Below are positions 1,457-6,258 of a stretch of DNA of 27,976 nt, piece after piece; position 1 is the first letter of the stretch, and the number at the start of each line of letters is the position of its first letter. The notes beneath the pieces were generated by a model. The model was not told the origin of the DNA, did no database searches, and was given only the letters and a program-made list of their open reading frames with translations. Source of the stretch: a virus. A program made the position numbers and the translations under genes. Where the stretch lies: the IMG/VR virus record IMGVR_UViG_3300034117_000591, positions 1 through 27,976 of that record; one strand, 5' to 3'.

Positions 1457-1826
1457 TGGAGGCGTTGGGATTCGAACCCAAGTGTTGCTTACTTCGATAA
1501 TACAATTTTATACAGCTTTGTGCAGATTCTAATGTTTTTTACTTCCTAATAATCTACTAAATTTGGGAAGGAGATCGACTGTAAACAGTCAAAACCACCA
1601 CTCTGTTTAATCTAACAGAGAAATCTTTGAATGTTTAGGCTGCTACAGCAACTTCTTCTCTCAATAAAGAGAATACTTTGTTCATGTTAGCTTCGATTTG
1701 TGCGTTGTCTCCTAGAGATACTACACGTGTGTTTGTATTGCCATTTAATTAATTCATCTTAGTTTACAGTTATCTCTCTGGCTGAATTGTAAGACCTATA
1801 ATAACCAGTCAATTCCAGTCGCCCCC
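1457..1826 (-). ncRNA. ssrA: Transfer-messenger RNA (tmRNA, ssrA)
   Basis: Read leftward, the gene starts GGGGGCGACTGGAATTGAC and ends GGGTTCGAATCCC then CGCCTCCA. The 5' GGGGGCG pairs with the 3' CGCCTCC over all seven positions (one G-T), the reduced D-arm CTGGAATTGAC fits the tmRNA pattern, and the T-arm (TTGGG/CCCAA around TTCGAAT) is intact. A P2-like helix forms between TACAATT near the 5' end and AATTGTA near the 3' end. The tag frame ends VAVAA then TAA at 1635-1637; it is open back to GGC at 1740-1742, up to 35 residues. After the stop come hairpins CTCTGTT/AACAGAG and GACTG/CAGTC, where tmRNAs carry pseudoknots. CCA is not encoded. tmRNA frees stalled ribosomes and tags the nascent chain for proteolysis. 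Confidence 0.92.
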
Positions 1827-1974: not shown

Positions 1975-2056
1975 TAGTCAGGACAGGATTCGAACCTATA
2001 ACATAACAATCGCTTTCAACCTTCTAGTTAGCGTCTACCAATTCCGCCACCTGACT
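1975..2056 (-). tRNA. tRNA-Leu-like gene with irregular anticodon arm
   Basis: The acceptor stem is perfect (AGTCAGG/CCTGACT, discriminator A). The D-arm TGGCGGAATTGGTAGACGC is typical of tRNA-Leu. The T-arm (ATAGG, TTCGAAT, CCTGT) is intact, and the variable region is long, as in type II tRNAs. The anticodon arm is odd: the best stem is CTAAC/GTTGA (four pairs) around a six-base loop TAGAAG, one base short. UAG read from that loop would be Leu, but U33 is then missing. It is either a tRNA-Leu(UAG) with a deletion, a tRNA decayed in the anticodon arm, or a tRNA-like RNA. No CCA is encoded. Confidence 0.7.
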
Positions 2057-2492: not shown

Positions 2493-3296
2493 TTAGTTAA
2501 CTGTCTTAACAAATGGTAATGAACCACCAGAATATGTTGTTGGTAACTTACCATTCCATTTGTTGATTGCTTTCTCTTGCAATAACTGAGGAGTGATACC
2601 AGCACTTCTAATCTTGTTTTGTTCAGTCTTTAATGCTTCTAGTTCATTTCTCTTTCTTTGCTCAGCAATCTGTTGATCTAATACAGAAATGTTTGTGTTC
2701 ACTTCATTACGACTATCGATCTTTGCTTTCACTTTCTTAGAGAAGTCTAAGTTAAGACTGAAGCTGATTAATTCTAATCCTGATTTCTCAAACTCTTTCT
2801 TAACTATAGCTTGAACATACTGCTCAAATTTCAATGAACCACCATTAGCCATTAATGAATCTGTTGTATAAGCTCTTGATGCTTCTTTAATGATGTCATA
2901 AATACGAGGCTCTAATACATTATCTTGTAAAGCTTTCATGAAATCATCACCTGAACCAAGTCTAGCATTCTGGAAGACAACATCAACCACTTTAGCTGGA
3001 ATCACTTTATATGAATACAATGGTTTAGATGAGAAGGCAGTGTTATCTGCAGCTTTAATGCTTAATGTTCTCTCTGTTCCTTCTTCATCAGTGAACACAC
3101 CTCTTTGTTCCCATGCTGGTACTTGAAATAATTCTGTACCTGCTGATAATGTACTCACTCTACCTTGTTGTTTAGAATAGTCATCTTTACCATTCTTACC
3201 GTAGTTTTCCATTAATACACCATAATAGTTTGGTGCAACACGCTCACATGATGTCAATAACATCAAACCTAATAATAATCCTAATACTTTTTTCAT
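2493..3296 (-). CDS. SPFH/prohibitin-like lipoprotein
   Basis: The 267-residue product opens with a lipoprotein signal: MKKVLG, a hydrophobic LLLGLMLL, then TSC with Cys at about residue 17 for lipidation. The following 150 residues look like an SPFH (Band 7) domain, with ELFQVPAWEQRGVFT, a YSYKVIPAKV strand and KEFEKSGLELISFSLNLDFSKKVKAKI. A basic-acidic coiled coil follows (DQQIAEQRKRNELEALKTEQNKI). SPFH proteins assemble into large membrane rings or cages. A phage copy could reshape the membrane, control host proteases or exclude superinfecting phages; that is inference. It overlaps the small membrane gene at 3293-3457 by ATGA and shares its promoter. No hairpin terminator follows, so transcription may continue into the RNA island. 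Confidence 0.75.
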   Translation of the reverse strand: MKKVLGLLLGLMLLTSCERVAPNYYGVLMENYGKNGKDDYSKQQGRVSTLSAGTELFQVPAWEQRGVFTDEEGTERTLSIKAADNTAFSSKPLYSYKVIPAKVVDVVFQNARLGSGDDFMKALQDNVLEPRIYDIIKEASRAYTTDSLMANGGSLKFEQYVQAIVKKEFEKSGLELISFSLNLDFSKKVKAKIDSRNEVNTNISVLDQQIAEQRKRNELEALKTEQNKIRSAGITPQLLQEKAINKWNGKLPTTYSGGSLPFVKTVN

Positions 3297-3457
3297 TTTT
3301 TCTGTTGGTTTTTAAATTTGTTTTCTAAATAATAAATTGAGGTTGCAACTCCTCCAATTGCAATTGCTATTCCTACCCACGAATTAAAATGGTTAAATAA
3401 GAATGATGCTAAAAATATCCATACTAGGAAAATTAGCAATGTTAATAAAATTTTCAT
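3293..3457 (-). CDS. Two-helix small membrane protein (54 residues)
   Basis: The frame starts at the ATG complementary to 3455-3457 and ends with a TGA overlapping the ATG of the SPFH lipoprotein gene (ATGA). The product starts MKILLTLLIFLVWIFLASF, a first membrane segment, then a short HFNSW link, then a second segment (VGIAIAIGGVATSIYYL) and a Lys/Gln-rich tail ending NQQKK. The overlap and shared promoter suggest it works with the lipoprotein at the host membrane. A holin-like role is possible from its shape, but no lysis gene lies next to it. Confidence 0.7.
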   Translation of the reverse strand: MKILLTLLIFLVWIFLASFLFNHFNSWVGIAIAIGGVATSIYYLENKFKNQQKK

Positions 3458-3471
3458 CGATATTGGTTTTA

Positions 3472-3509
3472 ATTAATAAAAATCCCTGCAAATATACTTC
3501 ACAGGGATT
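3472..3509 (-). terminator. Rho-independent terminator after the VWA gene
   Basis: An 8-bp perfect stem (AATCCCTG/CAGGGATT, 3481-3488 and 3502-3509) is followed leftward by TTTTTATTAATT. It lies 15 bases after the VWA-gene stop. The loop contains the -7 box of the next promoter. Confidence 0.8.
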
Positions 3510-3520
3510 AATAAAACAAA
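3489..3520 (-). promoter_or_regulatory. Bacteroidetes-type promoter overlapping the terminator
   Basis: On the leftward strand TTTG (complement of 3517-3520) and TATATTTG (complement of 3489-3496) match both consensus boxes exactly with a 20-base spacer. The -7 box sits in the terminator loop. The predicted start near 3482 precedes the small membrane gene by about 25 bases. Confidence 0.75.
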
Positions 3521-3523
3521 CAA

Positions 3524-4924
3524 TTAACTTTTAATCTGTTGCTTTCCTACATCTTTAGAATAAGCAAACGTTTCAAGATCATATGTAATCTCAATTTGTT
3601 TACCTTCTGTAGCAAGACAAAGATCTTTTAGCTCTTCACTGAATGACATCAATGAAATAGCATTCACCTTGTAAGGAAACTCATCAGTACCCACTCTATC
3701 TTCACCATCATTGATGATTAATATCTCAGGTTTCTCTTCAGATAGATTTACATCTAGATTATGTAATTTACCACTGTGCACTTGATCAGCAACATATTCT
3801 ACTATGTCACCAATTGCTGTACCACCACCATTAGGCTCATTAGAGAATGTCTGCCAGAACTTAATCACATCATCTCTATCCTTGATGTGTTGGAAATTAA
3901 GTTCATCACAATCCTCAACAAAGTAACTAAAATACACCTCAGCTTCTCCTTTCATTACATATCTGAACCTGTCGATTAATATAGCATTTACCCATATTTG
4001 TTTCTCATCTTCAGACATACTTCCTGAGTAATCTAGAAGAATAATAATCTTCTGAATCTGCTCTTTTCTATCAACAGGTACACTAACAGTTAAGTCTTTA
4101 GTTAAGAACTTACTTCTGAAGTTTGGATATACCTTTTGCATTAGATTCATCATATGAATCTGAGAATAGTCTCTCATAATCATAGTAGAATACTGATCAG
4201 AATTAGCAACTATCTTCTCAGAGATTTCTTTCTCCACTTTGAACTCACTACCAAATTGACCTACAAGAGATAGGTGATTCATAATCTCCATCTTTCTTTG
4301 TTTACTAAGCTCATTAAGATCTAATTGTTCATTGATTGTTGGATCAAAATACAATTCTCTATCAAAGTCAAGTCTTTTAGTCATGTCTATCTCTTTGTCT
4401 TCACCATTATCATCTTCATCTCTTTCTTCTCTAGTTGTTTGACCTTTCAGTTTCAAATAAATAGATACAGCTTGTTCTAATGGTGAGAATCCAGGAATGA
4501 ATTGTTCAAATATACTATCGTACAAAGCTTTCTTTTGTTGATACTCACCTTGTTCAGATTCTGATAGCTTATCATAGTCTGCATACTTCTCAGCAACATA
4601 TTCTCTTTCATCAATCATCTTGAAATAACATATACGTGCTAGTTCTTTGATTGTATCAATAGATGTTTGCTTTGGTGCATGTACTTTCTTTCTGATCTCT
4701 GCAGCTGTTGGTGTTAGATAGTTAACTGGATCTTTAACAAACAGATCATCGTTATTATCAGTATCACCATAGTCCCAAGAGTAAGAGAATGATGACCAGC
4801 TTGATTTTGACCAACCACCTCCACCATATTTACTCTTCCAACCACCCTTGCTCTTTTTAGGAGCATAGGTGGGTGTGTAATAATCACCATCATAGTAATC
4901 ATCCCACAAGCTTGATTGTGCCAT
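3524..4924 (-). CDS. VWA-domain protein, partner of the MoxR-type ATPase
   Basis: The 466-residue product has a low-complexity start rich in Tyr, Gly, Ser and Trp (residues about 10-55), a helical middle with an acidic stretch (about 165-180), and a C-terminal von Willebrand factor A domain. The metal-binding MIDAS motif is complete: ILLDYSGSM puts D298, S300 and S302 in place, T369 lies in GGGTAIGD, and D406 in IINDGED. MoxR-VWA pairs act as chaperone-like machines in which the ATPase remodels a target presented by the VWA protein (for example RavA-ViaA). Its start overlaps the stop of the ATPase gene (TAATG), so the two are translationally coupled. The target is unknown. Confidence 0.85.
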   Translation of the reverse strand: MAQSSLWDDYYDGDYYTPTYAPKKSKGGWKSKYGGGGWSKSSWSSFSYSWDYGDTDNNDDLFVKDPVNYLTPTAAEIRKKVHAPKQTSIDTIKELARICYFKMIDEREYVAEKYADYDKLSESEQGEYQQKKALYDSIFEQFIPGFSPLEQAVSIYLKLKGQTTREERDEDDNGEDKEIDMTKRLDFDRELYFDPTINEQLDLNELSKQRKMEIMNHLSLVGQFGSEFKVEKEISEKIVANSDQYSTMIMRDYSQIHMMNLMQKVYPNFRSKFLTKDLTVSVPVDRKEQIQKIIILLDYSGSMSEDEKQIWVNAILIDRFRYVMKGEAEVYFSYFVEDCDELNFQHIKDRDDVIKFWQTFSNEPNGGGTAIGDIVEYVADQVHSGKLHNLDVNLSEEKPEILIINDGEDRVGTDEFPYKVNAISLMSFSEELKDLCLATEGKQIEITYDLETFAYSKDVGKQQIKS

Positions 4925-6258
4925 TAGATGAATGAAGCAATGGTTAAGTTCTTCTCAAACTTCTCAAGAGCAGATGTACCTGCTTTAACAAGCTGTGAGT
5001 GTACATGTACAACATCATCACCCACTACTAATCCTTTGATATCAGACAATTGTTTCTTAAGGTCTGAAATAGCAGTTTTGTACATTTTCTCATCTTCTCT
5101 AGATACCAATGGTAGAGTTGTTAGAGTTTCGATGCTAAATGTAATAGCTGCAGACAAATCTCTAAACTTGATTGTTGATTCAAACTTCTTGATTGCTTCA
5201 GAGATCAAAGATGGTTTCTTAGCAAACTCTGCAATAAATGATAATGATTCTGGACCACATTCATCATACACTTGATATGCTGTAACAGCAACACGAGGTG
5301 AAATAGTAATACCATTCTTAGCATACTCTTGTAATAAGTATGGAATCACTGGATCCACTTCTCCTTCACCAAATTTACTCTCAAGCAACTTGTTGTAGCT
5401 GATTTCTGTATAGTTATCCCATATTACATTAAGCTCAAGAGGAAAACGCTCCATCAATGCTTTCAATGACATATTCTTAGAGAATTCATCACGAGTTCTG
5501 TTAGTACAACAGATGATGAATTTAGTGTTGATAGGAAATATCTGTGTACCATTTCTGAATACACCACTAGATAGAATGTCCTTCAACTGCTCTAAGATGA
5601 AATCAGGTGCATCGAATAACTCTTCGAAGATAACATATTCATGATTCATGAATGAATTGTGTACTAAATACTCAATCTTACCTGTTGTTTCGAATGTAGG
5701 AATGTCAAGACCACCAAACAATCTGTCTGTAGTCATACCTGTACCCATAGTTTGGATAAAAGGATCAATACCTTTAGCTTTTAAGAAATCTAATGTAATC
5801 TCTGATTTACCATGACCACCTGGACCATATAAAATAACATTCTTAGCTGTAGAAAATCCTACGTTTAAGATACTAACTGTTTTATCCATGAATACAAACT
5901 TCTCTGCTACTGGATTCTTTACTGCGTTCTTAGTTTTTCCCATTTTTTCTTTTGTTTTTAAGGAGTTTTGATTTAATTGTTTTACTTGTTCTATTACTTC
6001 TGTAATGTCTACTATTTCTTCTTCTTTAAGAATGTAATCATCTGGTTCGAATGTCCAACTATCCATGATAAATGATTTACCTTGGTCCATTTTTGAATTA
6101 AATGTATCAGGAATAACCATTCCTATATATTTATTCATTTCACCATCTTCACACCAACCATTTGGATAACCACCATCAGGATGATTACAATATCCATCTT
6201 CTGTCCAAAGATCGTCTTCTTTAAATTCTTCTATTGTCTTGAATCTATATTTACTCAT
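4924..6258 (-). CDS. MoxR-type AAA+ ATPase with an extra N-terminal domain
   Basis: The product has 444 residues. Walker A is GPGGHGKS (145-152), Walker B is EYVIFEEL (about 207-214), and sensor 1 is FIICCTN (about 247-253), with MERF at about 269-272 as a possible arginine-finger region. The order and the VWA partner gene place it in the MoxR group. Residues 1-105 form a separate Asp-, Tyr- and Trp-rich module (YRFKTIEEF ... PNGWCEDGEMNKYIGMVIPD ... DDYILKEEE) not usual for MoxR, which I recall as a stand-alone domain in phages. Met106 (ATG complementary to 5941-5943) follows ACTCCTTAAAAACAAAAG, a match to the recurring gene leader, so a 339-residue ATPase without the extra domain may also be made. 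Confidence 0.85.
   Translation of the reverse strand: MSKYRFKTIEEFKEDDLWTEDGYCNHPDGGYPNGWCEDGEMNKYIGMVIPDTFNSKMDQGKSFIMDSWTFEPDDYILKEEEIVDITEVIEQVKQLNQNSLKTKEKMGKTKNAVKNPVAEKFVFMDKTVSILNVGFSTAKNVILYGPGGHGKSEITLDFLKAKGIDPFIQTMGTGMTTDRLFGGLDIPTFETTGKIEYLVHNSFMNHEYVIFEELFDAPDFILEQLKDILSSGVFRNGTQIFPINTKFIICCTNRTRDEFSKNMSLKALMERFPLELNVIWDNYTEISYNKLLESKFGEGEVDPVIPYLLQEYAKNGITISPRVAVTAYQVYDECGPESLSFIAEFAKKPSLISEAIKKFESTIKFRDLSAAITFSIETLTTLPLVSREDEKMYKTAISDLKKQLSDIKGLVVGDDVVHVHSQLVKAGTSALEKFEKNLTIASFI

Follow-up and report, generated by a model that had tools for sequence, protein, structure and literature searches.

The stretch of DNA analysed here (the window) is an IMG/VR virus record of 27,976 bases that carries a one-piece tmRNA gene on its minus strand (Table 1). 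A first-pass annotation made from the letters alone had proposed a phage-encoded tmRNA with a complete tRNA-like half and a seven-pair acceptor stem; its coordinates and frame proved right, the strand not having been given. The Rfam tmRNA model RF00023 matches over its full length (model positions 1-374 of 374) with 50.8 bits against a gathering score of 47 (E 1.9e-17), and both the acceptor stem GGGGGCG/CGCCTCC, with seven pairs including G3-U70, and a complete T arm (TTGGG-TTCGAAT-CCCAA) are present. ARAGORN, which had been named as a further check, gives no tmRNA call at this gene. The RF00023 threshold is also passed by the tmRNAs of the cultured phages Fpv1, Calle_1 and phi38:1 and by 14 of a sample of 20 further loci of the family described below, not by every diverged member.

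A G-U pair at 3-70 was found in 25/25 tmRNAs of the window's subfamily, with compensatory changes in stem pairs 4-6. It is retained in 79/79 distinct complete genes of the whole family, as collected by a script that sought well-paired ends and so leans towards pairing, the G-U itself not being a requirement. At the 3' end (window 1457-1454, and across the family) A73-C74 is encoded in nearly all members and the next bases are not CA, so that the host has to complete the CCA.

The window can be assigned to a crAss-like phage, since Pfam gives a match to Crass_capsid (E 2.7e-27) for its major capsid protein and to P22_portal for its portal protein, and several of its structural proteins have relatives in Flavobacterium phage Fpv1. 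A tRNA (1975-2056, minus strand; Rfam 41.1 bits) that ARAGORN misses lies a short way upstream of the tmRNA. Beside the tmRNA, positions 2493-6258 (minus strand) encode a Band_7/SPFH protein, a MoxR-type ATPase (bpMoxR) and, at 3524-4924, an ORF that has no Pfam match but resembles a von Willebrand A protein, a trio that is unusual company in a phage.

Table 1. Features of the tmRNA gene, in window coordinates.
Feature	Positions	Strand	Remarks
tmRNA gene	1454-1826	minus	5' end at 1826; full-length match to Rfam RF00023
Acceptor stem, 5' strand (GGGGGCG)	1820-1826	minus	pairs with 1464-1458; G3-U70 kept
pk1-region core CCAGAGAGATAACTGTAAACTAAGATGAA	1753-1781	minus	signature of the phage family, based on pattern scans of viral and prokaryote DNA
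Tag reading frame, 35 codons	1635-1742	minus	resume codon GGC 1742-1740; stop TAA 1637-1635; conserved TAAAT just 5' of resume codon
RNA hairpin GTGTAGTATCTC/GAGACAACGCAC	1700-1726	minus	covarying pair 114/124: UA 16, GC 9
Motif codons Q-I-E-A-N-M-N-K-V (tag residues 15-23)	1674-1700	minus	QxxANM in 80/81 tags; 1 non-synonymous against 40 third-position changes
Second RNA hairpin, TCTCTTT/GAGAGAA region	1654-1672	minus	covarying pairs 164/173 and 165/172
C-terminal VAA codons	1638-1646	minus	putative Clp-type degron; AA ends 75/81 tags among the matches listed
T arm (1481-1465), acceptor 3' strand (1464-1458), discriminator A (1457)	1457-1481	minus	CCA not encoded

The tag encoded in the window is GNTNTRVVSLGDNAQIEANMNKVFSLLREEVAVAA. 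Tags usually have about ten residues, and the unusual length of 35 claimed for this one is borne out: the frame is open back to the predicted resume codon, upstream of which the codons read AAT, TTA and TAA, as had been described, and this far upstream resume site is conserved among relatives. Neither of the two outcomes named beforehand as fatal to the idea, a failure to match the tmRNA model or a resume codon near the stop, was thus observed. The sequence TAA[AT][TC] stands immediately 5' of the far codon in 113/114 loci among the matches listed (GAAAT in the remaining one), and within the same set the tag always begins with [GD][KN]. Every one of the family's 93 distinct tag DNAs keeps this frame open, whereas none of the 93 is open in the +1 or +2 frame across that span. 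A full tag junction in phi38:1 or phi14:2 would read Ala-GNNTNAVNAQIEANM... or Ala-GNDTDN... The published range of tag lengths is 8-35 residues, with 35 at its top (PMC8012679); the relatives reach 49 residues and thus exceed it.

These relatives were collected with a pattern, CAGAGAGATAACTGN{2,10}ACTAAG, that describes the pk1-region core, sits 5' of the tag and is blind to it. (An earlier pattern with the 5' end GGGGGCGACTGG had given matches in which ARAGORN found no tmRNA.) On viral contigs more than 119 stretches carry the core pattern, which is a lower bound; among 84,980 prokaryote genomes it has no genuine match. The sole prokaryote stretch that fits it, in a Rhodoluna MAG (L272), has neither tag nor tmRNA and was rejected as a chance match. 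Among the matches listed, 114 have complete frames, and all of these are long, with 24-49 residues and 81 distinct sequences, of which 75 end in AA; all parsed loci together comprise 86 distinct peptides and 93 distinct DNAs. To allow for the non-independence of IMG/VR contigs, counts were made on distinct sequences or on a tree. An ordinary short tag, with about 8-15 residues and no extra conserved module, is not what this family carries; its 24-49 residues include a conserved Q-x-x-A-N-M module. Long tags bearing the motif also occur in members with a diverged core, which were found through the motif itself and hence are not independent. The window tmRNA is one member of a large and apparently undescribed family of phage tmRNAs: in the literature searched, which included few subscription journals, we found no paper describing a long conserved phage tag or such a family.

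Phage tmRNAs without the core (L452, L474, L405, L453, L376, L490, L482, L304 and L330) also often have long tags, of 18-32 residues. Several of these share an FGF- or NFG-like motif (for example GINKALSNFFGFAEEMPLAA, GNKNRVRAFGFKSRELALAA and AKESNVVYADFGFNTRTANALAA) and perhaps represent a second family of tag modules.

The family is present in cultured phages, namely Flavobacterium phage Fpv1 and its kin, the Cellulophaga phages phi38:1 and Calle_1, and the crAss-like Cellulophaga phage phi14:2. With blastn, 29 phage records from Flavobacterium and nine from Cellulophaga proved to hold related DNA. In each of the 29 the 35-residue tag is encoded, at 77% identity, and no feature is annotated at the tmRNA site; many of them lack any annotation. 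The tags are GNTNNSVVSLEDNAQVEANMNMAFSLIREDVAVAA in Fpv1, GNNTNAVNAQIEANMEAVNAILNLEVAVGV in phi38:1 and Calle_1, and GNDTDNTQLKANMTVVHNILNGSDALIGSSVQKLAMVA in phi14:2. The Calle_1 record annotates one tmRNA, which the literature mentions without describing its tag (PMC8776804). The tmRNAs of phi14:2 (L094, 1462-1931), phi38:1 (L095, 1501-1862) and Fpv1 (L002, 2501-2915) are unannotated in their records; in those of phi14:2 and phi38:1 a short hypothetical CDS overlies the gene, with no tmRNA feature in the stretch read. The uncultured crAss-like phage cr128_1 (L096, 1599-1868) carries a group I intron (86.1 bits) beside a weak chance match.

Among the matches listed, 80 of the 81 distinct core-selected tags contain Q-x-x-A-N-M, which is followed by x-x-V in all tags but the Fpv1 type, where Ala replaces Val. 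The sole exception is also the longest tag, GNIDNDAQEVVDINYTFSTPMMVVHKGERKSVSPSQDLSWGTRQVAIAA with 49 residues (L132, 2431-2793, minus strand). On a tree built from the RNA outside the tag only, with 77 distinct complete genes that have the motif, the codons for Q, A, N, M and V have undergone 1 change at first and second positions combined against 40 at third positions. Forty third-position changes against one amino-acid change in five motif residues demonstrate, at the level of these sequences, that selection acts on the peptide. The comparison of the window and Fpv1 tag DNAs likewise gives third-position differences of 18/26, with pS 0.68 and pN 0.12. AlphaFold2 predicts for 25 tags one helix over residues 10-34 (mean pLDDT about 90 over residues 11-30), and the predicted helix is amphipathic in 96% of the distinct tags. 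Searches of the tag against known protein families and solved structures returned nothing significant. The suggestion of the first-pass annotation that a long tag might do more than mark for decay becomes plausible through the peptide-level conservation of the internal helix; the function itself, together with a putative receptor and the degradation of tagged products, we infer. In core-selected tags among the matches listed, 7-19 residues precede the M of the motif and 15-31 follow it. An arrest peptide acting at a fixed distance from the stop was rejected on account of the latter range.

Part of the tag frame has a second role. RNAalifold, applied to the 25 tmRNAs of the window's subfamily, placed two hairpins inside it, with compensatory changes at pair 114/124 (U-A to G-C in 9 sequences) and at pairs 164/173 and 165/172 (in 4 each), counts that exceed those of shuffled and slid controls. 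Because of these changes we regard VVSLGD and part of FSLLREE as at least partly RNA-driven, and the coupled peptide change S9/D12 to A9/A12 is accounted for by the base-pair swap in the first hairpin. The long frame that had first been noticed is real, but in the window's subfamily part of its length serves the RNA, as the covarying hairpins indicate; neither this nor the large family had been foreseen. One could go further and ascribe the length mainly to RNA architecture, as by-product of an enlarged helix-5-like hairpin domain, with the peptide degraded in the ordinary way via its last residues. The hairpins would fit, as would the shortest subfamily members, which lost the downstream structure yet keep the tag. 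We nevertheless consider this unlikely, for the motif does not vary at the protein level whereas its codons differ freely at the wobble position, also where the hairpins were not found. In the other subfamilies tested they were absent, so that the motif as a whole is not explicable by them.

We propose instead that the tag is a bipartite degron, composed of an internal docking helix and a C-terminal Clp-type signal, that works with SmpB and a protease of the host, and that it is made by a functional, alanine-accepting tmRNA, for which the G3-U70 half, pk1, the resume site and the open tag frame speak. We give this joint reading a probability of about 0.5. On a stalled ribosome the phage tmRNA would work with host SmpB, since SmpB was found in 0/32 carrier records, and would add Ala plus the 35-residue tag to the stalled product. 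The amphipathic helix, Q-x-x-A-N-M-x-x-V-x-x-[LI]-[LI], would then dock a host factor, which may be a protease adaptor or an AAA+ protease (ClpX, ClpA, ClpC or Lon), and the hydrophobic-Ala-Ala terminus would act as the entry signal for the unfoldase; in the window's subfamily the lengthened frame would also form part of an RNA domain of hairpins. The sequences contain both the internal motif and the separate C-terminal hydrophobic-Ala-Ala, and a docking site is favoured by the variable position of the motif relative to both tag ends. Through the extra length, tagged proteins probably gain a second binding signal. Against the proposal stand the one member (L132) that lacks the motif and the RNA hairpins, which account for part of the tag sequence in the window's subfamily. 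A host partner is the more likely one, given that no ClpP scored above the cut-off in the 32 carrier records and that phmmer (E 1e-4) found no protein common to Fpv1, Calle_1 and phi14:2, more diverged partners being below its reach. More tentatively, a tmRNA whose tag docks one conserved host protein may have been retained by, or passed between, unrelated Bacteroidota phages, so that during infection rescue products would be re-routed off the host-tag pathway; an as yet unnamed adaptor or receptor would then exist in Bacteroidota hosts.

The same helix could also serve a non-degradative purpose, by binding or sequestering tagged proteins, by sending them to a particular place, or by being released as a peptide. 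Its roughly 20 conserved residues exceed what a ClpX-type C-terminal signal needs, but nearly all members retain the hydrophobic-Ala-Ala ending of ordinary degrons, and we judge such a role improbable.

On the family loci, ARAGORN called 68 tmRNAs and missed 46; it reported the full tag in 9, all of at most 33 residues, and only a C-terminal part in 59. That the real resume codon lies further downstream and the tag is of ordinary length, as the shorter pieces given for 59/68 called members might suggest, is very hard to uphold, for ARAGORN gives no full tag longer than 33 residues and chose the same far codon in 9/12 tags within that limit, and both the sequence before this codon and the start of the tag are conserved as described above. 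We think it equally far-fetched that the RNA is a decoy titrating host SmpB or tmRNA function: mycobacteriophage DS6A does have little beyond the tRNA-like domain, and a molecule of this kind acts as an inhibitor of tmRNA (PMC4131195), but here the mRNA-like part is complete and purifying selection acts on the tag peptide.

Since ARAGORN reports no full tag above 33 residues, shortens most tags and misses many genes, long phage tags are probably under-reported. The 2014 update of the tmRNA database named ssrA in ten phages (PMC4131195), and a later ARAGORN survey found tmRNAs in 402 (PMC9004378). With a phage-specific family, a tag selected as protein, a small invariant motif and cultured members, the role of a phage tmRNA becomes directly testable; the motif may lead to a Bacteroidota protease adaptor new to science, and it could be used as a portable degron.

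Phage-borne ssrA is known from Bxz1-type mycobacteriophages, phage G, the OM43 phage Melnitz and Cellulophaga phage Calle_1 (PMC4131195; PMC9004378; PMC8776804). The Calle_1 tmRNA belongs to the long-tag family of the window, whereas that of Melnitz is two-piece, unlike the window gene; a Bxz1 tag used as query gave no tblastn match. That a long tag can be linked to a particular protease has a precedent in Mesoplasma florum, whose ssrA tag is longer than that of E. coli and is read by Lon (PMC9382460; PMC3985003). There, however, ClpXP is absent and the tag has an altered end, NYAFA, whereas the phage family keeps the C-terminal Ala-Ala and adds an internal helix. A bipartite logic is also found in the E. 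coli ssrA tag, in which a short SspB site adjoins the ClpX signal. The phage tag would resemble it in combining a putative adaptor-binding part with a C-terminal unfoldase signal, but its motif is helical and lies 15-31 residues before the tag end, with a receptor that is only postulated. With bacterial one-piece tmRNAs in general (ssrA, RF00023) the phage RNA shares the G3-U70 acceptor stem, T arm, H2, pk1, resume site and hydrophobic-Ala-Ala tag end; it differs from them in a pk1 core not found in the prokaryote genomes scanned, in the tag-frame hairpins of the window's subfamily and, among the matches listed, in a tag of 24-49 residues with an internal helix motif.
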